A stretch of DNA of 33,069 bases from a virus, in IMG/VR virus record IMGVR_UViG_3300044732_001809, positions 1-33,069 of that record; one strand, written 5' to 3'. Below the pieces are notes generated by a model. It was not told the DNA's origin and did no database searches. It saw only the letters and a program-made list of their open reading frames with translations. Shown here piece by piece: positions 2,510 through 18,500 of the stretch. Within the stretch, counting starts at the first letter, position 1. The number at the start of each line of letters is the position of its first letter. Made by a program: the position numbers and the translations under genes.

Positions 2510-5500
2510 ATGGCAATAAGTAATCTATTAACGGGTAGGGTAAGGGTTGTAAGCCCGAAAAATGTAACATCTGATAGGTATCAATTCTTGGATTTATCTC
2601 AAGCAGAGCCGAATTTAGGTGTTCCTAACTTTTCTGCTTCATTATTAACAAATCCTGCTATCGTAGTTTCGGATGACCAAGGTAATAGAGGATTTGTAAG
2701 AAGTTTAGATTTAGAAAGAGTAAGTGGACAATTTACAGGTTCATTTACAGGTAGCGCCGATTCTTTAAGTGGTAGCTTCTCTGGCTCTTTTAGTGGTTCA
2801 TTTATAGGTGATGGCTCTCAATTAGTTAATTTACCAAATGCAACATTTATAGCAAGTGGTTCAGCCACAGCATCTTTTGTCGAAGGTAATTTATTAATTA
2901 ATACAAACGCTAGAGTTAAAGGTGACCTTTATGTGGATGATACAATTTATGCGGAAAGTATAATAGTATCATACATTTCATCATCTGTAATATATTCTTC
3001 TGGCTCAAATGTATTTGGCGATGAAGCAACCGATATTCAACAATTTACTGGTTCGGTTGAAATTAAAGATTATTTAAGATTTAATGAAGCAACTGGTTCT
3101 TCAATATCCGCATCATTTACTGGTTCATTCTTTGGGGATGGTTCAAATTTATTTAATTTACCACAAGCTACAAAATTAGCTAGTGGTAGTGTAACTGCAT
3201 CTGTATCACCTGATGATGGATTGAAAGTTGAATCTTGGGAAAGTGGTTCTCAATATACAGGTTCTATTTTTGTAAGTGGTAGTAGAGGTATTGAACTAAC
3301 ATCTGGTTCATCTTTCTCTGGTAGTGGAGCTAGATTATTTGATATACCTCGTTCTGCTTTAACTCCTGATGCACTCTTATCAACATTTATTGTAAGTGGT
3401 AGCGTAACAGCTTCGGTTAGTCCTGTATATGGATTTAGAGTTGAATCTGCATTAAGTGGTTCTGAATTTACTGGTTCAATTGATATAAGTGGTAGTGTAT
3501 CTGCTTCTTTATTTATTGGAGATGGTAGTAGATTATTTAATTTACCAGCGTTATCCGCAACATTAATAGTTAGTGGTAGTGTAACTGCATCCGTAGCACC
3601 AAATAAAGGATTTTTAGTAACTTCGGTTGAATTTGGTTCACAATTTACTGGTTCTATTTTTGTAAGTGGCGCTAGAGGTATTGAATTGACATCTGGTTCT
3701 TCATTTAGTGGTAGTGGTGCTAGATTATTTGATATACCAAGAACAGCACTTACGCCTGATGCATTAATATCAAATTTAATTGCTTCTGGTTCGGTAACCG
3801 CATCGGTTAGTGATGTATATGGATTTGTAGTTAAATCACCAGCAAGCGGTTCGCAAATAACAGGTAGTGTACGAATAAGTGGAAGTGCATATGTGGAAAG
3901 TGGTTCTATCTTTGTTGGAGACGGTAGTGGATTACGAAACATACCATTCTCAGCACTTTCGGAAGAAGTAGTAGCAGCAACTAAAATAACAAGTGGAAGT
4001 GTAACTGCTTCTGTTAGTCCTGCATTTGGATTCAAAGTAGAATCTATTGCTAGTGGTTCTCAATTTAGTGGTTCTCTATTCGTAAGTGGTGGAAACGTTC
4101 AATTACAATCGGGTTCATTCTTTAGTGGAAGTGGTAGGGGTTTATTTGATATTCCATTTTCGGCATTTTCAGGTGATGTTGATAGAATCGCTAGTGGTAG
4201 TGTAACAGCATCGGTTTCACCTGACTTTGGATTTGTAGTAGTATCTCTTAGTGGTTCTATTTTTAGTGGTAGTGTATTTTTAAGTAGTGGTAGTTTGTTT
4301 AGTGGTAGTGGTAGGGGATTATTTGATATTCCAAAATCAGCAATTTCTGATTTAGATTTATCATTAATTTTCTCTGGTTCTGCAACGGCATCTATAAATC
4401 CTGTTCATGGTTTTGTAGTTAATACACCAACAACAATTAGTGGTAGTTTAATTGTATCATCATCTAATTACGCAATACCATCATCATCAATAGATACTAC
4501 TTATTTTGTAACAAATAATTCATTCTCATCGTATGGATTTACAGGAGCTCAAATAGGTTCAAACATACAAGTAACATTAGTTAAAGGTATAACATATAGA
4601 TTTATTGTAAATGCAAGTGGACATCCGTTTTGGATTAAAACTGCACCAACAACAGGTACCGGTGACCAATATAATGATGGTGTAACTAATAATGGTACTG
4701 ATAATGGTATTATTACTTTTGAAGTAACGGAAACAACACCATCTAATCTTTATTATGTTTGTCAAAACCATTCTGTTATGAATGGTACTATAAGTGTATC
4801 AGATGCTCTTTATAGAAAAGCTGAAATTAAATTTATAGGTGATACTCAATTGACAGGAAGTTTGAAGATTTCTTCAACTGTAACGGCATCAATGTTTAGT
4901 GGTAGTGGTAGAGGTTTATTTGATATTCCTAGAAACGCATTATCGGAAGAAGTATTTCGTTTAGCTAGTGGTTCGGTAACAGCATCAGTTAGTCCTCAAC
5001 ATGGTTTTAGAGTTGAAGCTAAAGTAGAAGGTTCTCAATTTACTGGAAGTATTAAAGTATCTGGTTCATTGACAGCTGAAAGAATTTTTTCACCTGAATT
5101 TACTGGTTCGTTTGAAGGTGATGGTAGTAAATTAAAAAATGTACCATCTGTAGAAAGTAATAGAATCGTAAGTGGTAGCGTAAGCGCTTCAGTTAGTCCT
5201 GATTTTGGATTTGTTGTAATATCAACGGAAAAGGGAAGTACTATAAGTGGAAGTGTTGTTGTAAGTGGAAGTGTATTTGCATATGGTAATATAGAATTAC
5301 GAAGTGGTTCTGCTTTCTCTGGTTCTGGTGAAAGATTATTTAATATACCAAGAACGGCATTAACGCCTGACGCTTTATTATCAGTTGAAATTAAATCTGG
5401 TTCTGTAACAGCATCAGTATCTCCAACTTTTGGATTTGATGTAAAATCTATTGCTAGTGGTTCTAGATTTAGTGGAAGTTTATTTATAAGTGGAGGTGGT

Positions 5501-8500
5501 GTTTATTTACAATCTGGTTCATCTTATTCTGGTAGTGGTAGATTATTATTTGATATACCAGCAGCTGCAATTTCTGATTTAGATACATCAAAAATATTTA
5601 GTGGGTCTGTAACGGCATCGGCAACTCCTAATTTTGGATTTGTTGTAACATCTGTTGCTAGTGGTTCTATATTTAGTGGAAGCTTGGTAGTAAGTGGTAG
5701 TTCTAGATTTAGATTAGGTGTATCCGCATCGGTATTTAGTGGTAGTGGTGCGGGATTGACAGATATTCCATTCTCAGCACTTTCACAAGAACTATTTAGA
5801 ATTTCATCTGGTTCGGTAACTGCATCGGCATTGCCGGACAGAGGATTTATTGTAGAATCTATTGCTAGTGGTTCTACATTTAGTGGTTCTTTATTTGTAA
5901 GTGGTGGATATGGTGGTGTAATCCAAGCTATGACAGGGTCATGGTTTAGTGGTAGTGGTAGAGGTTTATTTGATATACCAAGAAACGCATTAACAGAAGA
6001 TGCATTATTATCAGTAGAAATAAAATCAGGATCTGTAACAGCTTCTGTTTCTCCTAATTTTGGATTCAGAGTAAAATCACCTGATAGTGGTTCTGAATTT
6101 ACTGGTTCGGTTGATATTAGTGGTAGCTTGAATGTTACTCAAAAATCTCAATTTACTGGGTCTATAAATGTTAGTGGTAGTATCGTAGTAGCTAGTGGTT
6201 CTCATTTTGTTGGGGATGGTAGATATCTATCTAATATTACAATAGCTAATTTAGCAATTGATTCAACAAAAATATTTAGTGGAAGTGCAACTGCATCTAT
6301 TTCACCTGTTGAAGGATTTGATGTAAATGTTCATTCTAGATTTGATGGTAGTTTTATTGTATCATCTTCTGGAAGACCTACTCCTGATTATTTAATTAAT
6401 AGAAATATTACTGTAACAAATGATGGTAGTAATTCTTATATAATAGAAAACGGTCTTATTAGTGGTTCAAATCCAACTCTAACATTAGTTAGGGGATTGG
6501 AATATACTATTGATGTAGATGCTGCTGGGCATCCATTTTGGATTAAATACATACAATCTACTGGTACATCTAATTCGTATAGTAGTAGTATTACAAATAA
6601 TGGAACTGATAATGGTATTATTGTATTTACTCCACCATCTGGTTCACCTAATACACTTTATTATAACTGTCAATTACATTCATCAATGGCGGGAGCTATT
6701 AATCTTGTAGATTATATAGAAACGCCGGCCGAAATAACATTGATTGGAAATACTAAAATAGAAGGTAATCTAACTGCTTCAATGTATAGTGGTAGTGGTA
6801 AGGGATTATTTGATATACCTATTTCTGCATTATCTCAAGAAGTATTCCGTATTGCAAGTGGTAGTGTAACTGCATCGGTAAGTCCTGTATTTGGATTTAG
6901 AGTTGAAGCATTTGAAAGTGGTTCTGATTTTAGTGGAAGTATTAGAATTGATTCATCATCATTTATTTATTCAGAGGGTACATATTTAAGAAACATTCCT
7001 CGTTCAGCATTAACTGAAGATGCATTAATATCAACTGAAATTAAATCTGGTTCGGTAACTGCATCAGTAGCACCTGATTATGGATTTAGAGTAATTACTC
7101 CATTCACATCTTCGATTGATGAAAACGGATTATTTACTACTCAAATTGCTTCTAGATTTACTGGTTCAATTGATATAAGTGGTAGTTTATTTGTAAACGA
7201 TAATAGTGGTGCATTATATATAGGTTCATCATCATTCTTATATGCAGAAGGTACTTATTTAAGAAATATACCTCGCTCGGCATTAACCGAAGATGCATTA
7301 ATTAGTACTGAAATCAAATCAGGTTCAGTAACTGCATCGGTAACACCTGATGAAGGATTTAGAGTAATAACGCCATTCACTGGTTCACAAATTGGTTCAC
7401 AATTAACTGGTTCGGTATCTGTAAGTGGTTCACTTATTGCAGATGATGTAACTGCTAGAGGATTCTTCTTTGGAGATGGTAGATTTATTACCAATGTACA
7501 AGCGGCAGCAGCACCATTGATAGCAAGTGGTTCGGCAACGGCATCGGTAGCAAGTGGAGAATCATTTGTAGTAATAACCGCAAAAACGGGTTCACAAATT
7601 GGTTCTGAATTTACTGGTTCGGTTAGTGTTAGTGGGTCTGTATCAGCATTTGATATAACTTCAACTGGATTCTTTATTGGAGATGGTAGATTTATTACCA
7701 ACGTTCAAGCATCAGCAGCTCCATTAATCGCAAGTGGTTCAGCAACCGCATCCGTAGCAAGTGGAGATACATTCATAGTAACAACTGGAGCAACTGGTTC
7801 TAAGATTGGCTCACAATTAACTGGTTCTGTATCGGTAAGTGGTTCATTAATAGCTGATGATTTAACAGCAAGAAGATTTATATTTGGTGATGGTAGATTT
7901 ATTACTAACGTACAAGCATCAGCAGCGCCTTTAATAGCAAGTGGTTCTGCAACTGCATCGGTAGCAAGTGGTGAAATATTCCAAGTAATCACAGAAGCAT
8001 CATCTGGTTCATACAAATCTCAATTCACATCATCCGTAGCAATTAGTGGTTCAATTACAGCATCTCTTTATTTTGGTGATGGTGGTGGTTTATTTAATAT
8101 CCCACCTGATGCAATTGAAGGACTTGAATTAGCAAAAATTAACTCTGGTTCTGGATTTGCTATTGTTGATCCTGAAAAATTATTAGTAAACGTACCAATA
8201 ACAGCCGCACTTTATATAGGTGATGGGGGTGGATTATTCAATATCCCTGCAAATGCATTACAAGACCTTAAATTAGATAGAATCATATCTGGTTCAGTTC
8301 AAGCGGTGATATCACCTGATAGAGGTTTGGAAATTGGAACTAAAACATTCGTATCTGGTAACTTAAGTGTTAGTGGTGGATTGTTTGTAACTGGTGGAAA
8401 TGTTGTAGTATCATCTGGTTCTTCATTTGTTGGAGACGGTAGTGGTATTACAAATATTAACATTGCTAACTTATCATTTGAAACATTCATATTAAAGAGT

Positions 8501-11500
8501 GGTTCTTATACTGCATCAATTTCTCCTGACAAAGGATTTGTAGTTAATACATCAGCAAGTATTTGGGGTAATGTTTATGTTGGTAATAATTTAACTGCAA
8601 CTGATGTAACTGCTTCACATAGAGTATTCGCTCCATTAGTTAGTGGTTCTTTATTAGGTACTTATAATTTCCAAGGAGTTGGACCTACTGCATCTGCGGA
8701 ATATGATATTCTAAGATTTGATGAAAATAGAGGATATTTTGTACCTCAACCCGAAACAACATTAACCGAAACTGTATCATTTAGTAATGTAAGTGATTTA
8801 ACAATTGTACACAACTTAGGAATTTTATACCCTATGGTTCAGGTGTACGCAACTGGTTCTGAAGACCAAATCCTACCTGGTACTGTTAAATCAATTGACG
8901 AGAATACAATACAAATTAAATTTGCTGGATTAACATCTGGACATGCTGTAATTGGAAGTGGTGGTTCATTAATCAATGGTACAATAACCGGAGATAGAGT
9001 ATTCGGAACTGTATTATCAGCATCATACGCTGTAACTGCGGAGTTTGCAAAAACTGTAGCTGGATTTGATTCGGCATCATTAGCATCTCTATCAGCATCA
9101 TTAAGTGATACTGCACAATATATAAGAAATAATCAAACATCATCGATGAGTGTATTTGGTGCTGTAAGTTCTTCTTACGCATTAACTGCATCTTATATTG
9201 AAAACTTAAGTGGATTAAACTTAACGGATTATGTAAGAAATGATAGAACATCTTCAATGACGGTGTTAAGTTCATCTTTTGCAACAACCGCATCTTACGC
9301 ATTATTTGCACAAAACGCATCAAATGTAGATACATCTAACTTTGTTCAGAATTCACAAACTGCATCAATGTTGGTTGGTACTGCTTCATTAGCATTTACA
9401 GCATCATACGCTCTTTACGCTCTAAATGCGGAAGGAGTAAATACAGCATCATTCTTACAAGTAAACAAAGATTCTACAATAAACGCAAACTTAACTATTA
9501 GTGGAAGTTTGGGAGTTAGTGGTAGTATTACTGGTGCAACTAATTTATTTTTAACAAATTTACCAACAGGTTCATCTGATGATGTAGTTATTTGGAATAG
9601 TGTAACAAAACGATTAGAAAGAAGAAACGTAGCAGCTGCGGTTGGTTCATCTGGTACAGGTGGTACATCTGGTAAAGATGGAAGCGCAGGTTCTGCTGGT
9701 TCTTCTGGTTCATCTGGAAGTTCAGGTTCTTCTGGTTCATCTGGAAGTTCAGGTTCATCTGGAAGTAGTGGAAGTAGTGGAAGTAGTGGAGCGGATGGTT
9801 CATCTGGAAGTTCGGGTTCATCTGGTTCATCTGGAAGTTCGGGTTCATCTGGAAGTAGTGGCTCAAGTGGTTCGTCTGGAACTAGCGGTAGTAGTGGAAG
9901 TAGTGGGTCTTCTGGTTCTTCTGGAAGTAGTGGAAGTAGTGGAAGCTCAGGAACCACTGGTTCTGAAGGAACGTCTGGAAGTAGTGGAAGTAGTGGAACG
10001 TCTGGGTCATCTGGTTCTTCTGGAAGTAGTGGAACGTCTGGGTCTTCTGGTTCATCGGGAAGTTCTGGTTCATCAGGAACGTCTGGCACATCAGGAACAT
10101 CAGGAACGTCTGGCACATCGGGAACCTCTGGAAGTAGTGGTTCTTCGGGAAGTAGTGGTACAACTGGTTCTCCTGGTACAAGCGGTAGTGGTGGAACGTC
10201 TGGTTCATCTGGAAGTAGTGGCACAAGCGGAAGTGGTGGAACTTCAGGAACTTCTGGTTCGTCTGGTTCATCGGGAACTTCTGGCACAAGTGGAAGTGGT
10301 GGTTCATCAGGTAGTGGAGGTACATCTGGTTCGTCTGGAACTAGTGCATCTTCTGGTAGTGGTGGTTCATCCGGTTCATCGGGAACTTCTGGCACATCAG
10401 GTACATCAGCTACATCGGGAACTTCTGGTACGTCTGGTTCTGGTGGTACAGCTGGTACATCAGCAACTTCTGGTTCTGGTGGTTCGGCAGGTACTTCAGG
10501 TTCATCTGGTTCTTCGGGAACTTCTGGCACAAGCGGTAGTGGTGGAACATCTGGTAGCGGAGGTACATCGGGAACGTCTGGTTCGGATGGTATAAGTGGT
10601 ACGTCAGGAACTTCTGGCTCTTCTGGAAGTAGTGGTACATCTGGTTCGTCTGGAAGTAGTGGTACAAGCGGCACATCGGGAAGTAGTGGAAGTAGTGGAA
10701 GTAGTGGTTCATCTGGTAGCTCAGGTTCTTCTGGAAGTAGTGGTACTGCTGGTACGGGAGGTTCATCGGGAACTTCTGGCTCGAGTGGTTCATCTGGAAG
10801 TAGTGGAACTTCAGCAACATCTGGAACATCGGGAACTTCTGGTTCATCTGGAAGTTCGGGTTCATCTGGAAGTTCTGGTTCATCTGGAACTACGGGCTCT
10901 GATGGAACATCTGGTTCTTCGGGAACAAATGGTTCTTCGGGAAGTAGTGGAAGTAGTGGTAGTGGAGGTTCATCGGGTTCATCTGGTAGCTCAGGTTCAT
11001 CTGGTAGCTCAGGTTCTTCTGGTAGCTCAGGTTCTTCTGGAACTGGTGGTTCATCGGGAACGTCTGGAGAAAACGGAACATCTGGAACTGATGGTTCTTC
11101 TGGCTCGGCTGGTTCTTCTGGAAGTAGTGGAAGTAGTGGTACGACTGGCTCATATGGTACAAGTGGTAGTAGTGGAGTTGATGGCACATCTGGTATAGAT
11201 GGTACATCGGGAACTGATGGCTCAACTGGTAGTGCAGGTACATCAGGATCATCTGGTAGCAGTGGTACAACGGGTTCATATGGTACGAGCGGAAGTAGTG
11301 GAAATGATGGAACGTCTGGTATAGATGGTACAAGCGGTTCAAGCGGCTCAAGTGGAAGTAGTGGTACAAGCGGTAGTAGTGGAAGTGGTGGTTCATCTGG
11401 AAGTAGTGGTTCAAGCGGCACAAGCGGTTTGGATGGTACATATTTTGGTTCTTCGGGAAGTAGTGGAACATCTGGTTCGTCTGGTACGAATGGAAGTGCT

Positions 11501-13492
11501 GGTTCATCGGGAAGCTCTGGTTCATCTGGAAGCTCTGGTTTGGATGGTACATATTTTGGAAGTAGTGGTACAAGTGGTGAAAGTGGAACATCAGGAACTT
11601 CTGGAACTAGCGGCTCTGCTGGTACATCTGGAGTTGATGGAACATCTGGTACATCGGCAGTAGATGGTACATCTGGTACGTCTGGTAAAGATGGAACGTT
11701 CAATGGTAGTAGTGGTACTTCAGGAGAAAGTGGTACATCTGGTTCATCTGGTGAAAGTGGAACAAACGGAAGTGATGGTTCATCTGGAAGCTCAGGCACA
11801 TCTGGTTCTTCTGGTTTAGATGGAACGTTCTTCGGAAGTAGTGGTACATCAGGAGAAAGTGGCACATCAGGAACATCTGGCACATCAGGAAGTAGTGGAA
11901 CATCGGGTACATCTGGTTCTTCTGGTATAGATGGTACGTTCTTTGGTTCACATGGAACATCGGGTACAACGGGAACTTCTGGAAGTAGTGGAGAAAGTGG
12001 TACAAATGGTAGTGGTGGCTCATCTGGAAGTAGTGGAGAGAGTGGTTCTTCTGGTTCAAGCGGTAAAGATGGTACTTTATTCGGAAGTAGTGGTTCGTCT
12101 GGTTCGTCTGGTTCAAGCGGAAGTGGTGGAACTTCGGGAAGTAGTGGAGTTGATGGTACATCTGGTTCATCTGGGGAAAGTGGAACTTCAGGTTCATCTG
12201 GACAAGATGGTACATTCTTTGGTAGTAATGGTACATCGGGAGAAAGTGGAACATCAGGTTCTTCTGGACAGAGTGGTTCAAATGGTACAACAGGAACATC
12301 TGGTACATCAGGTTCTTCTGGATTTGATGGTACATTCTTTGGAAGTAGTGGTACTTCAGGAGAAAGTGGAAGCTCTGGTTCGTCTGGTATAACCGGTTCA
12401 AATGGTACATCAGGTGAAAGTGGAACATCTGGTTCTTCTGGATTTGATGGAACATTCTTTGGTTCATCTGGTACATCCGGTTCTTCTGGCTCATCAGGTA
12501 CATCAGGAGAAAGTGGTACTTCGGGTATAAGTGGTACAGCTGGTTCATCTGGAAGCTCTGGTTTGGATGGTACTTTATTTGGTAGTAGTGGTACTTCGGG
12601 AGAAAGTGGAACATCGGGTTCTTCTGGACAAAGTGGTACTTCGGGTATAAGTGGTTCGGCTGGAACATCAGGTTCTTCTGGATTTGATGGTACATTTTTC
12701 GGAAGTAGTGGAACAACTGGTACATCGGGTACATCTGGAGTAAGCGGCACATCGGGTATAAGTGGTACTACCGGTACATCGGGTTCTTCTGGATTTGATG
12801 GTACATTCTTTGGTAGTAGTGGTACATCTGGAACATCTGGTGTATCCGCATCAAATGGTACGTCTGGAACATCTGGATTGGGAACATCTGGAACATCTGG
12901 ATTTGATGGAACTTACTTTGGTAGTAGTGGTACAAGCGGCGCATCTGGAACATCTGGAACGTCTGGAGCAGGTACATCGGGTATAAGTGGTAGTAGCGGT
13001 ATAAGCGGTACAAGCGGTACAAGCGGTTTCTTAGATTTGGTTGGTACAACGGATAATGGTTTAATAACTTGGGATAATGGTAATATAAAAGGACAAGTTG
13101 AGAGTAATATTACATTCAATGGAAGTTTATTATCAATAACAGGTGGAATTGAATCAACTTATGCTGGGGCTACTGCGTTTAGAGAAACTTATTCGGATTT
13201 AGGAACTGGTGGAAGTACAGCAATAGATTTATCAACAGCAAATAACTTTAGAAGACAATTTAACGCAGGAGCAACTATAACATTTACATCAGCACCATCC
13301 GGCAGAGCATTTGGATTTACAGTAACAACTGTAAATGCTGGGGCTTATGTAATAGATTGGCCAGCTATTGTAAATTGGGTAGGTGGCTCTCAACCATTAT
13401 TAACATCATCTGGTACGGATGTATTAACATTCTTTACTTTTGATGGTGGAACATCTTATTACGGATTTTTGGTTGGAAAAGATATGAGTTAA
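2510..13492 (+). CDS. Giant tail fibre protein (3660 aa) with beta repeats and Gly-Ser/Thr stalk
   Basis: Residues 1-100 are a non-repetitive start, possibly the virion attachment end. Residues ~105-2020 carry about 24 copies of a beta repeat with core SGSVTASVSPxxGFxV, followed by FSGSxxVSG and FSGSGRGLFDIPRSAL. Two cupredoxin-like inserts sit at ~663-765 and ~1299-1402. Residues ~2055-2155 contain the HNLG-x2-YP-x-VQVY motif seen in many phage fibres, then four SSSYA-x-TASYA-type repeats. Residues 2379-3506 are Gly-X-Y triplets of Ser/Thr. The last ~154 residues (GTTDNGLITWDNGN ... ILTFF-type ending ... GFLVGKDMS) match the ending of many phage fibre proteins, probably a trimer-forming tip. 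The following genes (LRR protein, fibre chaperone) fit a fibre cassette. It probably binds the host surface. At 3660 aa it is far longer than T4 gp34 (~1290 aa). Confidence 0.85.
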   Translation: MAISNLLTGRVRVVSPKNVTSDRYQFLDLSQAEPNLGVPNFSASLLTNPAIVVSDDQGNRGFVRSLDLERVSGQFTGSFTGSADSLSGSFSGSFSGSFIGDGSQLVNLPNATFIASGSATASFVEGNLLINTNARVKGDLYVDDTIYAESIIVSYISSSVIYSSGSNVFGDEATDIQQFTGSVEIKDYLRFNEATGSSISASFTGSFFGDGSNLFNLPQATKLASGSVTASVSPDDGLKVESWESGSQYTGSIFVSGSRGIELTSGSSFSGSGARLFDIPRSALTPDALLSTFIVSGSVTASVSPVYGFRVESALSGSEFTGSIDISGSVSASLFIGDGSRLFNLPALSATLIVSGSVTASVAPNKGFLVTSVEFGSQFTGSIFVSGARGIELTSGSSFSGSGARLFDIPRTALTPDALISNLIASGSVTASVSDVYGFVVKSPASGSQITGSVRISGSAYVESGSIFVGDGSGLRNIPFSALSEEVVAATKITSGSVTASVSPAFGFKVESIASGSQFSGSLFVSGGNVQLQSGSFFSGSGRGLFDIPFSAFSGDVDRIASGSVTASVSPDFGFVVVSLSGSIFSGSVFLSSGSLFSGSGRGLFDIPKSAISDLDLSLIFSGSATASINPVHGFVVNTPTTISGSLIVSSSNYAIPSSSIDTTYFVTNNSFSSYGFTGAQIGSNIQVTLVKGITYRFIVNASGHPFWIKTAPTTGTGDQYNDGVTNNGTDNGIITFEVTETTPSNLYYVCQNHSVMNGTISVSDALYRKAEIKFIGDTQLTGSLKISSTVTASMFSGSGRGLFDIPRNALSEEVFRLASGSVTASVSPQHGFRVEAKVEGSQFTGSIKVSGSLTAERIFSPEFTGSFEGDGSKLKNVPSVESNRIVSGSVSASVSPDFGFVVISTEKGSTISGSVVVSGSVFAYGNIELRSGSAFSGSGERLFNIPRTALTPDALLSVEIKSGSVTASVSPTFGFDVKSIASGSRFSGSLFISGGGVYLQSGSSYSGSGRLLFDIPAAAISDLDTSKIFSGSVTASATPNFGFVVTSVASGSIFSGSLVVSGSSRFRLGVSASVFSGSGAGLTDIPFSALSQELFRISSGSVTASALPDRGFIVESIASGSTFSGSLFVSGGYGGVIQAMTGSWFSGSGRGLFDIPRNALTEDALLSVEIKSGSVTASVSPNFGFRVKSPDSGSEFTGSVDISGSLNVTQKSQFTGSINVSGSIVVASGSHFVGDGRYLSNITIANLAIDSTKIFSGSATASISPVEGFDVNVHSRFDGSFIVSSSGRPTPDYLINRNITVTNDGSNSYIIENGLISGSNPTLTLVRGLEYTIDVDAAGHPFWIKYIQSTGTSNSYSSSITNNGTDNGIIVFTPPSGSPNTLYYNCQLHSSMAGAINLVDYIETPAEITLIGNTKIEGNLTASMYSGSGKGLFDIPISALSQEVFRIASGSVTASVSPVFGFRVEAFESGSDFSGSIRIDSSSFIYSEGTYLRNIPRSALTEDALISTEIKSGSVTASVAPDYGFRVITPFTSSIDENGLFTTQIASRFTGSIDISGSLFVNDNSGALYIGSSSFLYAEGTYLRNIPRSALTEDALISTEIKSGSVTASVTPDEGFRVITPFTGSQIGSQLTGSVSVSGSLIADDVTARGFFFGDGRFITNVQAAAAPLIASGSATASVASGESFVVITAKTGSQIGSEFTGSVSVSGSVSAFDITSTGFFIGDGRFITNVQASAAPLIASGSATASVASGDTFIVTTGATGSKIGSQLTGSVSVSGSLIADDLTARRFIFGDGRFITNVQASAAPLIASGSATASVASGEIFQVITEASSGSYKSQFTSSVAISGSITASLYFGDGGGLFNIPPDAIEGLELAKINSGSGFAIVDPEKLLVNVPITAALYIGDGGGLFNIPANALQDLKLDRIISGSVQAVISPDRGLEIGTKTFVSGNLSVSGGLFVTGGNVVVSSGSSFVGDGSGITNINIANLSFETFILKSGSYTASISPDKGFVVNTSASIWGNVYVGNNLTATDVTASHRVFAPLVSGSLLGTYNFQGVGPTASAEYDILRFDENRGYFVPQPETTLTETVSFSNVSDLTIVHNLGILYPMVQVYATGSEDQILPGTVKSIDENTIQIKFAGLTSGHAVIGSGGSLINGTITGDRVFGTVLSASYAVTAEFAKTVAGFDSASLASLSASLSDTAQYIRNNQTSSMSVFGAVSSSYALTASYIENLSGLNLTDYVRNDRTSSMTVLSSSFATTASYALFAQNASNVDTSNFVQNSQTASMLVGTASLAFTASYALYALNAEGVNTASFLQVNKDSTINANLTISGSLGVSGSITGATNLFLTNLPTGSSDDVVIWNSVTKRLERRNVAAAVGSSGTGGTSGKDGSAGSAGSSGSSGSSGSSGSSGSSGSSGSSGSSGSSGADGSSGSSGSSGSSGSSGSSGSSGSSGSSGTSGSSGSSGSSGSSGSSGSSGSSGTTGSEGTSGSSGSSGTSGSSGSSGSSGTSGSSGSSGSSGSSGTSGTSGTSGTSGTSGTSGSSGSSGSSGTTGSPGTSGSGGTSGSSGSSGTSGSGGTSGTSGSSGSSGTSGTSGSGGSSGSGGTSGSSGTSASSGSGGSSGSSGTSGTSGTSATSGTSGTSGSGGTAGTSATSGSGGSAGTSGSSGSSGTSGTSGSGGTSGSGGTSGTSGSDGISGTSGTSGSSGSSGTSGSSGSSGTSGTSGSSGSSGSSGSSGSSGSSGSSGTAGTGGSSGTSGSSGSSGSSGTSATSGTSGTSGSSGSSGSSGSSGSSGTTGSDGTSGSSGTNGSSGSSGSSGSGGSSGSSGSSGSSGSSGSSGSSGSSGTGGSSGTSGENGTSGTDGSSGSAGSSGSSGSSGTTGSYGTSGSSGVDGTSGIDGTSGTDGSTGSAGTSGSSGSSGTTGSYGTSGSSGNDGTSGIDGTSGSSGSSGSSGTSGSSGSGGSSGSSGSSGTSGLDGTYFGSSGSSGTSGSSGTNGSAGSSGSSGSSGSSGLDGTYFGSSGTSGESGTSGTSGTSGSAGTSGVDGTSGTSAVDGTSGTSGKDGTFNGSSGTSGESGTSGSSGESGTNGSDGSSGSSGTSGSSGLDGTFFGSSGTSGESGTSGTSGTSGSSGTSGTSGSSGIDGTFFGSHGTSGTTGTSGSSGESGTNGSGGSSGSSGESGSSGSSGKDGTLFGSSGSSGSSGSSGSGGTSGSSGVDGTSGSSGESGTSGSSGQDGTFFGSNGTSGESGTSGSSGQSGSNGTTGTSGTSGSSGFDGTFFGSSGTSGESGSSGSSGITGSNGTSGESGTSGSSGFDGTFFGSSGTSGSSGSSGTSGESGTSGISGTAGSSGSSGLDGTLFGSSGTSGESGTSGSSGQSGTSGISGSAGTSGSSGFDGTFFGSSGTTGTSGTSGVSGTSGISGTTGTSGSSGFDGTFFGSSGTSGTSGVSASNGTSGTSGLGTSGTSGFDGTYFGSSGTSGASGTSGTSGAGTSGISGSSGISGTSGTSGFLDLVGTTDNGLITWDNGNIKGQVESNITFNGSLLSITGGIESTYAGATAFRETYSDLGTGGSTAIDLSTANNFRRQFNAGATITFTSAPSGRAFGFTVTTVNAGAYVIDWPAIVNWVGGSQPLLTSSGTDVLTFFTFDGGTSYYGFLVGKDMS
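4496..4806 (+). other. Cupredoxin-like domain 1 inside giant fibre
   Basis: Residues about 663-765 of the fibre interrupt the beta repeats with a different domain: a strand-rich start, then ASGHPFWIKT, a GVTNNGTDNG turn and YYVCQNHSVMNG. His (GHPF), Cys, His and Met (CQNHSVM) fall in the order of type-1 copper ligands. The Cys-x2-His-x2-Met loop is shorter than the plastocyanin Cys-x2-His-x4-Met loop. The fold assignment and metal binding are inferred; it could equally be a copper-free cupredoxin relative used as a spacer. Confidence 0.55.
6404..6715 (+). other. Cupredoxin-like domain 2 inside giant fibre
   Basis: A second copy at residues about 1299-1402 with the same landmarks: AAGHPFWIKY, SITNNGTDNG and YYNCQLHSSMAG. 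The His...Cys-x2-His-x2-Met residues are all kept although the rest of the domain has diverged from copy 1, which argues that these positions are under selection. Confidence 0.55.
6945..7380 (+). repeat. Recent tandem duplication, 273-base period
   Basis: Two copies of a segment containing EGTYLRNIPRSALTEDALIS begin at equivalent points 273 bases (91 codons) apart (GAG at 6974, GAA at 7247). They continue nearly identical in protein through SGSVTASV and FRVITPFT. DNA similarity is also high, so this looks like a recent in-frame duplication within the shaft. Confidence 0.8.
7384..8050 (+). repeat. Tandem repeat, exact 207-base (69-codon) period, three copies
   Basis: The segment GDGRFITNVQA(A/S)AAPLIASG begins at 7472, 7679 and 7886, spacing exactly 207 bases each time. 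Each copy continues with SATASVASG. The first two copies then run through the GSQIGS/GSKIGS-type and LTGSVSVSGS segments; the third diverges after about 100 bases. A partial unit precedes the first copy. The exact period and the high DNA similarity indicate recent in-frame expansion of the fibre shaft. Confidence 0.85.
9644..13027 (+). repeat. Gly-Ser-Ser / Gly-Thr-Ser triplet stalk (1128 codons)
   Basis: A collagen-like Gly-X-Y stretch in which X and Y are almost always Ser or Thr, with scattered Asp, Glu, Lys, Asn and Ala. I see a single proline. From 11429 to about 12921 it is broken 13 times by a (F/L/I/K/Q)DGT-x-(F/N)-G segment that inserts one extra residue between glycines. Codons are mixed (GGA/GGT, AGT/TCA/TCT/TCG), so the DNA is far less regular than the protein. 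Long open frames on other strands here are by-products of this repeat. Confidence 0.9.
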
Positions 13493-13503
13493 TATTTAAT
13501 GTT

Positions 13504-14406
13504 ATGAGTATAGCTAGAAAATTAATACCAAGTGGAGAAGAACAATATCCATTCAAAATTAAAGTAGTAACAACTACTGCAAACACTGTATTTACTGTAC
13601 CTTTGGTGAACTATGGGGGATTACCTCCTTCATTGAATATTCAATGGGGAGATGGGAGTGCAAATTCTCCATTAATTACATCATCTACGGACTTAAATAG
13701 AATACATACTTATGTAAGTCCCGGAACTTATATAATTACTATAAGTGGTTTTATGCCAGGATTTCAAGTAAGTAATAATTCGGCAATAAGAAATCTTATT
13801 ACTGAAATAGTTCAATTTGGAAAAGTTGGATTAAGAATTTTGAACTTTTATGGATGTGTTAATATAACATCAATACCATCAAATGCATCATTAAGTGCAG
13901 TTGGTGGATATAGTGGATTAGATGAAATGGTTTCTTTTGCTTCTTTTATGAGAGGTACTAGAATTTCTACTATACCATCGGATATGTTTGATTATTCACC
14001 AAATGTTACAACTTTTATAGATGCTTTTTCATCTGTAACTACATTAACAAATGTACCATCGGGATTATTTGATAATAACCCAAATGTAAATACATTTGCA
14101 TCGTGTTTTCTTGCATGTACGGCACTAACATCCGTACCATCAACTTTATTTGACCAAAATGTAAATGTAACAAACTTTTCTGGTACATTTCGTAACTGTA
14201 GGTCATTGACAAATGTTTTAACGTTTCAATACAATACACAGGTTACTATTTTTAATAGTGTTTATAATATGAGTTCTACTGCTAATGCTTTAGTAGGAAA
14301 CGCACCGGAATTGTGGAATAGAACTCCAACACCATCTGGAACTGATGCATTTAACAATTGTACTGGATTATCAAATTTTGCATCAATACCTCTAAATTGG
14401 AAATAA
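13504..14406 (+). CDS. PKD-like plus DUF285/BspA-type leucine-rich-repeat protein
   Basis: 300 aa. Residues ~28-82 resemble a PKD/immunoglobulin-like domain: a WGDGS turn at 48-52, then HTYVSPGTYIITISG at 68-82. Residues ~112-290 contain DUF285/BspA-type leucine-rich repeats; three units start IPSDMFD (157), VPSGLFD (184) and VPSTLFD (211), an exact 27-residue period, with phases such as F-x2-CTALTS and F-x-NCRSLTN. There is no signal peptide or membrane segment, as expected for a virion protein. It starts 11 bases after the stop of the giant fibre and is followed 3 bases later by a fibre assembly chaperone gene, so it is probably a receptor-binding tip or a fibre accessory. These domains are known from bacterial and mycoplasma surface proteins; binding specificity cannot be told. 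Confidence 0.75.
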   Translation: MSIARKLIPSGEEQYPFKIKVVTTTANTVFTVPLVNYGGLPPSLNIQWGDGSANSPLITSSTDLNRIHTYVSPGTYIITISGFMPGFQVSNNSAIRNLITEIVQFGKVGLRILNFYGCVNITSIPSNASLSAVGGYSGLDEMVSFASFMRGTRISTIPSDMFDYSPNVTTFIDAFSSVTTLTNVPSGLFDNNPNVNTFASCFLACTALTSVPSTLFDQNVNVTNFSGTFRNCRSLTNVLTFQYNTQVTIFNSVYNMSSTANALVGNAPELWNRTPTPSGTDAFNNCTGLSNFASIPLNWK

Positions 14407-14409
14407 ATT

Positions 14410-14853
14410 ATGTATTTAAGAATTATAAATGAAAATATAGTATATCCATACTCTCTACAAAAATTGAGAAATGATAACCGAAATGTAACTTTTCCATCGG
14501 ATATTACAGATAGTATGATGGTACAATTTGATATGTACCATGTACAATCAACACCAAAACCAAATGATTACACAAAAAATATATCGGAGGGAACTCCTAT
14601 ATTAGTTGATGGTGTTTATTATCAAAATTGGGAAATTGTAAATGCAACCGAATCTGAAATTAATTTTAGAATTGAAGATAAGTGGAACGAAATCAGAGAT
14701 ATACGAAATACTTTATTACAAGAATGTGATTGGACACAATTATCAGATATTTCAACAGAAATAAAAGAATTGTGGCAAACATATAGGCAACAGCTTAGAG
14801 ATATTACTTCACAAACTAATGCATTTGATATAAGTTGGCCTACGAAACCTTAA
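14410..14853 (+). CDS. Tail fibre assembly chaperone-like protein
   Basis: 147 aa. The C-terminal half (residues ~91-147) has the pattern of the phage tail assembly chaperone family (PF16778-like): W-x2-IRDIRN-x-LLQECDWTQL, a middle W-x2-YRQQLRDIT, and the ending ISWPTKP. Proteins of this type usually sit directly behind tail fibre genes and help the fibre fold or assemble without remaining in it. Here it closes the first fibre cassette, starting 3 bases after the LRR protein stop. The N-terminal ~85 residues (VDGVYYQNWEIVNATE) match the usual variable, partner-specific part. The family call is from memory of the motif; the client fibre, either the 3660-aa or the LRR protein, is inferred. Confidence 0.75.
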   Translation: MYLRIINENIVYPYSLQKLRNDNRNVTFPSDITDSMMVQFDMYHVQSTPKPNDYTKNISEGTPILVDGVYYQNWEIVNATESEINFRIEDKWNEIRDIRNTLLQECDWTQLSDISTEIKELWQTYRQQLRDITSQTNAFDISWPTKP

Positions 14854-15246: not shown

Positions 15247-15579
15247 ATGGCAAACGCATTCAAAAATAGTATAACAGGTTCGATTGGAACAACAGGAGCT
15301 AAAGTTTATCAAGCACCTGCAGCAACATCAACAACGGTAATCGGAGTTGGTGTAGCTAATACACAAAATCAAAATATATCAGTTAGTGTTATGGTAAGAG
15401 ATACATCAGCTGATAAAACTGTATATGTTGTAAAGGATTCGTTAATAATGCCAGGAAGTTCTAATGTATTGGTTGGTGGTGAACAAAAGTTAGTTTTGGA
15501 AACAGGAGATTTTCTTTCAGTAACTTCATCATTGGCTAATTCGGCAGATGTAATTGTTTCGGTTTTGGAAATATCATAA
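15247..15579 (+). CDS. Small beta-domain virion structural protein
   Basis: 110 aa, starting 15 bases after the previous stop behind an A-rich leader. A strand-rich protein: VYQAPAATSTTVIGVGVAN, then VMVRDTSADKTVYVVKD, then GGEQKLVLETGDFLSVTSS and a final strand VIVSVLEIS. This arrangement is typical of small virion proteins of T4-like marine phages (loop SL-x-MPG-x-S, then KLVLE-x-GD). The same two half-domains flank a helical insertion in the protein at 1498-2442, so this is the uninterrupted paralogue. It may form a trimeric or ring component next to the fibre attachment site; no specific function is proven. Confidence 0.7.
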   Translation: MANAFKNSITGSIGTTGAKVYQAPAATSTTVIGVGVANTQNQNISVSVMVRDTSADKTVYVVKDSLIMPGSSNVLVGGEQKLVLETGDFLSVTSSLANSADVIVSVLEIS

Positions 15580-15590
15580 AGTTGTAATGA

Positions 15591-18500
15591 ATGGAGTATT
15601 TAGGTAGCACCCCTAATGGATTAAATCAACTAAGCCAAAGCTTAGTTTCGTTATTTGTAAGTGGAAGCAGAATTGCTAACTTCACATCGGAATCGGTGAA
15701 TGTTGTTGGTAATTTTTCTGCATCTGGAATCCAAACAAATTTAATTGGTAGTTCATCAAACTCACCAATCGTAATAAAAGGAAATACTCAATTTACTGGT
15801 TCAGTAAATATAGCATCGTTTGTATCTGCCTCTTTGTTTCAAGGAGATGGTAGTGGATTATTTAATATTCAAGCATCATCAATTGGTGATTTGGATAGAT
15901 TAAAATCGGGTTCAGCAACAGCAATTATTTCTCCAAACAAAGGATTATTAATTAACACAGGTGTTAGTGTAGATAAATTTTTAATTGTAAGTGGGAGTGG
16001 TATTTTCAAAGGAGATATTAGTGTAGCTGGTAAAATAACAGCTACTGAAATACATACAACATATATTTCATCATCGGTAATATATTCATCTGGTTCAAAT
16101 AAATTTGGTGATGCACAAAATGATAAGCAAGAAATAACTGGTAGTTTATCAGTTAGTGGTTCTATATTCGTAACAGGAGATACAATACCAACCGATAATA
16201 CAACAAACGAAGTATTAGTTCTTAATACAACAACAGGAAGAATTAGTAGAAAGTTTGCAGCAGCAACATCCGGTACATCTGGTACTTCAGGAACATCTGG
16301 TTCTTCTGGGTCATCAGGAACATCTGGCACATCGGGAACGTCTGGTAGTGGTGGTAGTTCGGGAACGTCTGGGTCTTCTGGTTCATCGGGAACTTCTGGG
16401 TCTTCTGGTACTTCAGGAACTTCTGGGTCTTCTGGAAGTAGTGGTTCATCTGGCACATCAGGAACTTCAGGTACACGTGGTACATCCGGGTCTTCTGGAA
16501 GTAGTGGTACTTCAGGAACTTCTGGGTCTTCTGGTACATCGGGAACTTCTGGTTCATCTGGGTCATCGGGAACTTCTGGTTCGTCTGGTTCAAGTGGCAC
16601 TAGCGGTACTAGTGGTAAAGATGGAAGTAGTGGAACAAGCGGCTCATCTGGAAGTAGTGGAAGTAGCGGTTCATCGGGAACTTCTGGTTCGTCTGGAACA
16701 AGCGGACTTACTGGAAGTAGTGGTTCGTCTGGTACAACAGGAACATCTGGAAGTAGTGGTAAGGATGGTTCATCTGGCAGTAGTGGTTCATCGGGTTCTT
16801 CGGGAACATCAGGCTCATCTGGTTCATCGGGAACATCTGGTGTAACTGGAGCAGGTGGTTCTGCTGGGTCTTCTGGTTCTTCTGGAACTAGTGGGTCATC
16901 GGGTATATCTGGTAGTAGTGGTTCATCAGGTTCGTCAGGAACATCAGGCTCATCTGGTAGTAGCGGTATAACTGGTGCTGGTGGTGGTTCTGGTTCTTCT
17001 GGTAGTAGTGGTTCTTCTGGTTCATCAGGAACGTCTGGTTCGTCTGGGTCATCGGGAACTTCTGGTTCATCCGGAACATCTGGAAGTAGTGGTAGTAGTG
17101 GTATAGCTGGTGTACAAGGTACATCAGGAACTTCTGGGTCTTCTGGAACAAGAGGAACTTCTGGGTCTTCGGGAACTTCTGGAAGTAGTGGTAGTAGTGG
17201 AGAGAGTGGAACATCCGGTTCTTCTGGAACTTCTGGAAGTAGTGGTAAAGATGGCGCAGTTGGTACAAATGGAACTTCTGGCACATCGGGAAGTTCTGGT
17301 ACAAGAGGTACATCGGGTTCATCTGGGTCTTCTGGAACATCTGGTAGCAGTGGTATTGCAGGTAAAGATGGTACAAGTGGTTCATCCGGAACGTCTGGAA
17401 GTAGTGGTAAGGATGGATTAGCTGGCACATCTGGTAGCAGTGGTACATCCGGCTTAAGTGGTTCTGCTGGAACTTCTGGAAGTAGTGGAAGTAGTGGAAG
17501 TAGTGGTACAAGTGGCTCATCGGGCACATCTGGTACGTCAGGAACAAGAGGAACTTCTGGGTCTTCGGGAACTTCTGGTTCTTCTGGAACTTCGGGAACT
17601 TCTGGAGTTAGTGGTTCGGCTGGTACAAGTGGAAGTAGTGGTTCAAGCGGCACATCTGGAAGTAGTGGTTCAAGCGGCTCATCTGGAAGTAGTGGTACTT
17701 CGGGAACTACTGGCACATCTGGTACATCGGGAACAAGAGGAACTTCTGGGTCTTCAGGTTCGTCTGGCACATCTGGAAGTAGTGGTACTTCGGGAAGTTC
17801 AGGTTCATCTGGCACATCTGGAAGTAGTGGTACATCGGGAAGCTCAGGTTCTTCTGGCAGTAGTGGTACTTCTGGTACATCGGGCTCATCTGGAACGGCT
17901 GGTTCATCTGGATTGTTATCATTAACTGGTACAACTGATAATGGTGTAATCACATTAAACGGAAGTGCACCAAACGCAACCGTTGAAGCAAATTTAAGAT
18001 TCGATGGTAGTACATTGACAGTAACTGGTAACGCTACAATTAGTGGTGACCTTACTGTAAGTGGTACTACAACATATATTAATACAACAACTCTTAACGT
18101 AGGTGATAATATCATCACATTAAATGCTGATATTGGAGCATCAACCACACCAACTGAAAATGCTGGTATAGAAGTTAAGAGAGGTAATGCAGCAACTAAA
18201 GCATTTTATTGGGAAGAAGCAAACGATAGATGGTATGCTGAAGATGGTTTGTATGTAGCTGGTAACGTAGTTCTTAGTGGTACAATAGATACTGGAATTG
18301 GAGCAACTGAAGTTTATTTGATGAATCAGAATGTTCGTACATCTGATAGTGTAACATTTGCAAATATAACTGGACCTTTAACCGGTACTGCTACAAGAGC
18401 AAATCATCTAAATACAACTAGAGATACTCCTGATAACTCATTACAATATTGGCAAGCTTCTGGTCTTGGTATTACTGAAGCCCCAAGTGGTGATTGGCAT

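Follow-up and report, generated by a model that had tools for sequence, protein, structure and literature searches.

The fibre cassette around D

The window, by which we mean the whole stretch of DNA that was analysed (33,069 nucleotides), is an entire IMG/VR record, a 33-kb viral contig. Profile searches found matches to a tail sheath, a gp19-like tube and T4_baseplate, which place it among the T4-like contractile-tail phages. A 300-aa gene of this contig, hereafter D, lies in a fibre cassette with the following features:

2510..13492, + strand: giant fibre, 3,660 aa, with a collagen-like GSS stalk near aa 2399-3499
13178..13489, + strand: C-terminal domain of the giant fibre, a conserved beta-sandwich and candidate dock for a tip protein
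13504..14406, + strand: D, ATG start, 300-aa PKD-LRR protein, putative fibre-tip adhesin
13504..13539, + strand: N-terminal tail of D, aa 1-12 (MSIARKLIPSGE), low-confidence in the model, candidate docking tag
13552..13773, + strand: PKD-like beta-sandwich domain of D, aa 17-90
13840..14403, + strand: BspA-type LRR solenoid of D with a conserved C-terminal cap, aa 113-300
13972..14214, + strand: three in-register 27-residue repeat units of D, aa 157-237
14410..14853, + strand: gene E, fibre-assembly chaperone by profile match, Phage_tail_APC (PF16778), 147 aa
15591-24152: second giant fibre, H, 2,853 aa, with a GSS stalk

Only 12 nt separate the end of the giant fibre from the start of D, and gene E begins 4 nt 3' of D. 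As gene E matches PF16778 with 53.1 bits (E-value 2.8e-14), above the gathering score of 26.6 bits, the placement of D between a giant fibre and a fibre chaperone, proposed in an earlier note on this DNA, is borne out. The second giant fibre ends in a Peptidase_S74 intramolecular chaperone domain (E-value 3.4e-10). No other gene of the cassette varies as much, both in length (full-length copies have 2135-2957 aa) and in similarity.

The C-terminal domain of the giant fibre is predicted to be a beta-sandwich (pLDDT 86). A PDB sequence search with this domain returned no relative; by structure, the best row was the capsid spike of phage Pa223 (Z 8.2, rmsd 2.8, 92 aligned), and the N-terminal region of CBA120 TSP4 was also found (Z 6.7, rmsd 3.4, 91 aligned). 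These likenesses are too weak to carry a family name, and none was given.

Three other features of the cassette were observed. The giant fibre contains two copies (4619-4780 and 6527-6688) of a GHPFWIK...YY(V/N)CQ(N/L)HS(V/S)M motif pair that, judged by its residues, resembles a type-1 copper (cupredoxin) site; the first copy had no match in Pfam or among PDB sequences. The 110-aa gene at 15247-15579 resembles a "virion structural protein" of Roseobacter, Rhizobium, cyano- and pelagiphages and is conserved across very different phages. Moreover, long antisense ORFs run opposite the GSS/GTS repeats at 9415-12750 (-) (1,111 aa) and 15869-18148 (-) (759 aa), and are probably composition artefacts of the collagen-like stretches.

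D combines a PKD-like domain with an LRR solenoid

The repeat units IPSDMFD, VPSGLFD and VPSTLFD of D start at aa 157, 184 and 211, a spacing of exactly 27, whereas the sequences of the units differ from one another. Over aa 115-300 we counted 33 identities at lag 27, while shuffled sequences reached a maximum of 29 (all lags 10-59, 5,000 shuffles), so that the 27-residue periodicity suspected beforehand is confirmed. Ahead of the repeats, the WGDGS...HTYVSPGTYIITI stretch occupies aa 48-81 and presents the PKD signature WGDG...H.Y...G.Y. In 24 aligned relatives W48, G49, D50, H68, T69 and Y76 are invariant and G74 and T75 nearly so, which substantiates the domain described at this place. In the N-terminal tail of the same relatives I3 never changes, R5 and L7 are conserved in at least 90%, and the rest is variable.

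AlphaFold, run on D with the 24 relatives, gave a model with pLDDT 92 and pTM 0.88. It consists of a low-confidence tail (aa 1-11), the strands of a beta-sandwich between aa 17 and 88, which carries the PKD signature, and a repeat solenoid reaching to aa 300. In structure comparison the top PDB rows were LRR proteins, namely designed LRRs, lamprey VLRs and SALM/LRRTM adhesion molecules, at Z about 16, with about 200 residues superposed at rmsd 3.1-3.5 A. By sequence, phmmer matched D to an LRRTM-type chain (E-value 1.2e-9) and a profile search matched LRR chains (E-value 5e-12). With 26-27-residue repeats forming a solenoid of LRR-like structure, D has the fold of the BspA-type LRRs.

Pfam searches were less favorable to the names given in the earlier note. 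LRR_5 (PF13306) reached 16.4 bits on D (E-value 0.0087), below its gathering score of 27.7 bits. The PKD families (PF00801/PF18911) did not match D itself but matched 13 of the 24 relatives (best E-value 5e-4), and the DUF285 profile (PF03382) did not match D and hit two of the 24 at E-values of 0.07 or worse. Membership of D in DUF285 was therefore rejected, and for LRR_5 and PKD the scores lie below cut-off. In other words, "PKD plus BspA-type LRR" correctly describes the predicted fold, supported by the model, the LRR chains and the PKD matches of the relatives, and the named Pfam family does not hold. D is also matched by phrog_9915 (E-value 5e-25, aa 115-255), as are all 24 aligned relatives; this 1,813-position family of unknown function is common to D in the LRR part only.

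D is a conserved gene under purifying selection

A scan of IMG/VR with D yielded 79 loci, with relatives of 291-313 aa by ORF and 49-100% identity (one of the 79 copies is cut by a contig end). A giant fibre precedes D in all loci with flanking sequence, and the order on the 3' side is the chaperone, the 108-aa and 110-aa genes and then H; in two loci the chaperone was missed by the ORF listing at the size used. Mean pairwise divergence was 0.30 for D, 0.37 for both the chaperone and the fibre C-terminus, while the two small genes had 0.24 and 0.25. The median dN/dS of D was 0.27, its LRR part had the same value, and its N-terminal tail had 0.63. Purifying selection together with near-constant length shows that D is a real gene. 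Moreover, the divergence and dN/dS values characterize it as a conserved component and not a fast-evolving one, and rule out a hypervariable host-range gene. Conserved, non-diversifying evolution of this kind is unusual for a host-range determinant.

The slot between fibre and chaperone is exchangeable

In an IMG/VR survey anchored on the chaperone, D was directly upstream in 71 of 80 loci, another protein took this place in eight, and one locus starts at the chaperone. The eight other occupants were a LamG lectin (PF13385, E-value 1.5e-8), a Gly-rich protein and propeller-like proteins. Two extra scans with distant chaperones enlarged the survey to 240 loci, 132 of which have the slot protein behind a fibre that shares the C-terminal domain of the giant fibre (68 D and 64 other proteins). 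Pfam assigned slot proteins to DUF7483 (E-value 1.8e-97) and a beta-propeller family (PF10282, E-value 9.8e-29); another is LamG_3 (E-value 7e-98), from a locus without upstream fibre sequence. The same cassette occurs in two isolates, Roseobacter phage CRP-13 (gp46-gp45-gp44) and Limnohabitans phage DC31, where the fibre C-terminal profile matched with E-values of 4e-20 and 9e-18. In Synechococcus phage S-SKS1 (L196:1868-4762), two LamG-like proteins lie directly before the APC chaperone.

The LamG, beta-propeller and DUF7483 proteins of S-SKS1, DC31 and CRP-13 therefore share with D the place directly before the APC chaperone, and those of CRP-13 and DC31 also the place behind the same fibre domain, but their folds are unrelated to that of D. 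The slot behind one family of fibre C-terminal domains is exchangeable. Considering that unrelated proteins occupy it elsewhere, D looks like one choice among plug-in host-attachment heads.

Both LamG-like proteins of S-SKS1 end identically, in NFDALKGRYGL, and the LamG slot protein of an unrelated contig (L189) ends in NFNQYKDRYGL.

The slot proteins were also compared at their N-termini. The pattern [KR].[LI][LIAV]...small residue was present in 29 of 44 distinct slot N-termini versus 50 of 737 other ORFs, a contrast whose P value is descriptive only, as the regular expression was devised with the sequences already in view. We tentatively propose, at somewhat less than even odds, a widespread exchangeable-tip system in which the fibre C-terminal beta-sandwich and the APC-family chaperone would accept unrelated adhesin heads (PKD-LRR, LamG lectin, beta-propeller, DUF7483 or Gly-rich) via an N-terminal tag. 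Examples of the hypothetical tag, and hence of the hypothetical docking, would be MSIARKLIPSG, MATKKKLLQAAAG and MSVRDILQAAAG.

LRR modules in other tails, origin and host

BspA-type LRR solenoids with a C-terminal ending similar to that of D are present in a Phapecoctavirus "tail protein", in a Reipivirus tail protein I fusion and in Bacillus phage G gp353. In these phages the module is fused to a larger protein, while in D it is a stand-alone gene; both in the Phapecoctavirus protein and in the tail protein I that a P2-like Klebsiella phage encodes, the solenoid is C-terminal. The "putative tail protein" gp93 of Synechococcus phage S-CBWM1 is PKD-like plus LRR and covers 91% of D at 26% identity, a likeness noted at the protein level; its repeat type (SLTSFPALPDTS) differs from that of D. 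The claim that such a protein is rarely described for T4-like phages is right only in part: the annotations of many phages already include BspA/LRR proteins, some as "tail protein", and the main new evidence here is the slot exchange. A search of the available literature on PKD/LRR proteins in phage tails gave no match. Purified particles of the giant alga virus AaV contain two DUF285 proteins (PMC7507832).

A pattern scan of a genome collection for D relatives gave a single match, a prophage. In a Bacteroidetes prophage, a tail-fibre-like gene whose product has an Mtd_N-like N-terminus is immediately followed by the gene of a PKD+LRR protein of 371 aa, the ending of which resembles that of D. 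Two Bacteroidota tail-like elements (L111 and L112) have the same chaperone family followed by repeated cassettes, each made up of a 152-aa stem and a second protein, either PKD-DUF285 (DUF285 E-value 1e-142) or LRR_5, and these tandem cassettes look like a tail-adhesin array. Their modules (PKD-DUF285, LRR_5 and others; L111:7336-14083, L112:5535-13264) share the N-terminus MG(A/S)L(L/I)QNT(I/V)FG.

The D profile matched 24 of 395 Bacteroidota genomes, some of the matches being surface proteins and others lying in tail-like elements. Bacteroidota BspA/DUF285 surface proteins have the same succession of PKD-like domain, linker and LRR repeats, and one of them, with a lipoprotein-type leader (G362, L113), has the C-terminal CF..CTGL..Y...P..W cap in common with D. 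On the contrary, D has no export signal, belongs to a phage tail operon and is not matched by PF03382. In a tree of the PKD region (115 columns), 9 of 18 inner branches are open and the deep forks are weak, and the tree gives no direction of transfer. An origin of D from a host, as suggested in the earlier note, is possible.

Regarding the host, no Shine-Dalgarno-like leader was found in 15 genes of the window (GC 36.7%), which points to a host group with little use of this signal, such as Bacteroidota. psbA was absent in 10 relatives, mostly fragments. The nearest tail sheath relatives infect Microcystis and Flavobacterium, and a search reaching about 10-20 kb from the sheath gene found no D homologue in either Microcystis phage Mel-JY01 or Flavobacterium phage immuto.

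D as a putative fibre-tip adhesin

We consider it rather probable that D is a virion fibre-tip adhesin, functioning like T-even gp38 with an unrelated fold. D would cap the distal end of the upstream giant collagen-like fibre and touch the host surface, docking on the beta-sandwich domain in which the fibre ends, possibly through its short N-terminal tail. The PKD domain would act as a spacer and the LRR solenoid would be the binding surface shown to the host, the receptor probably being a conserved glycan or surface protein, and the gene E chaperone may aid folding or assembly of the distal part of the fibre. Fold, synteny, slot exchange and purifying selection make this the most likely reading, and it is from them that we infer virion presence, docking and receptor binding.

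The precedent for a small fibre-tip binding protein is gp38 (PMC12892980). In T-even phages and S16, as in PP01, gp38 is like D a separate small gene directly 3' of the long fibre gene, and the receptor-binding place proposed for gp38 on the fibre tip is the one we propose for D. The fold of gp38, however, is a lattice of poly-glycine-II helices with loops, which the predicted PKD plus LRR architecture of D lacks; no homology between the two was found, and in the D cassette a separate APC chaperone follows. D probably functions like gp38; it is no member of the gp38 family. Among chaperones, Pam3 gp25 is likewise encoded 3' of the fibre (PMC9608196), and gp26 of Alteromonas phage V22 binds cells only if co-expressed with gp27 (PMC7289586).

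What argues against a tip adhesin is the evolution of D: diversifying selection left no sign, divergence is lower than in the chaperone or the fibre C-terminus, and length hardly varies. Together with the strict synteny, this could describe a conserved piece of the fibre or baseplate with a structural or hinge role and no receptor contact, leaving recognition to H, which is the more variable and carries the Peptidase_S74 end. We regard this as unlikely, considering that lectins and propellers fill the same slot in related cassettes, which is unexpected for a structural joint, and that both the LRR and the PKD fold serve for binding or as spacers; H may nonetheless hold the main host-range function. 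The receptor-binding candidate of the earlier note thus persists as a likely fibre-tip adhesin on the strength of slot exchange, with conserved rather than diversifying evolution speaking against it.

Ig/PKD-type adhesins in gut phages, like T4 Hoc, have been proposed to act as accessory adhesins. D could similarly be an accessory virion adhesin for targets other than the infection receptor (environmental glycans, particles or another cell), in keeping with its conserved evolution and with the adherence mediated by PKD-containing phage proteins (PMC13370021); its position in a fibre-chaperone cassette, and not among capsid genes, makes this improbable. Finally, that D acts outside the virion, exposed on the infected cell or set free from it like bacterial BspA surface lipoproteins, is suggested by the Bacteroidota protein with a lipoprotein-type leader, the nearest of the cellular relatives that share its C-terminal cap, but is very improbable for a protein that starts with MSIARKLIPS, without visible signal peptide or lipobox, and is encoded inside the tail gene block.

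For most environmental phages the receptor-binding protein is not known. If the gene between a fibre ending in this beta-sandwich domain and an APC chaperone is always the tip adhesin, hundreds of uncultured viruses would reveal their attachment head directly by sequence, and lectin, propeller or LRR heads would all be borne by one docking site.
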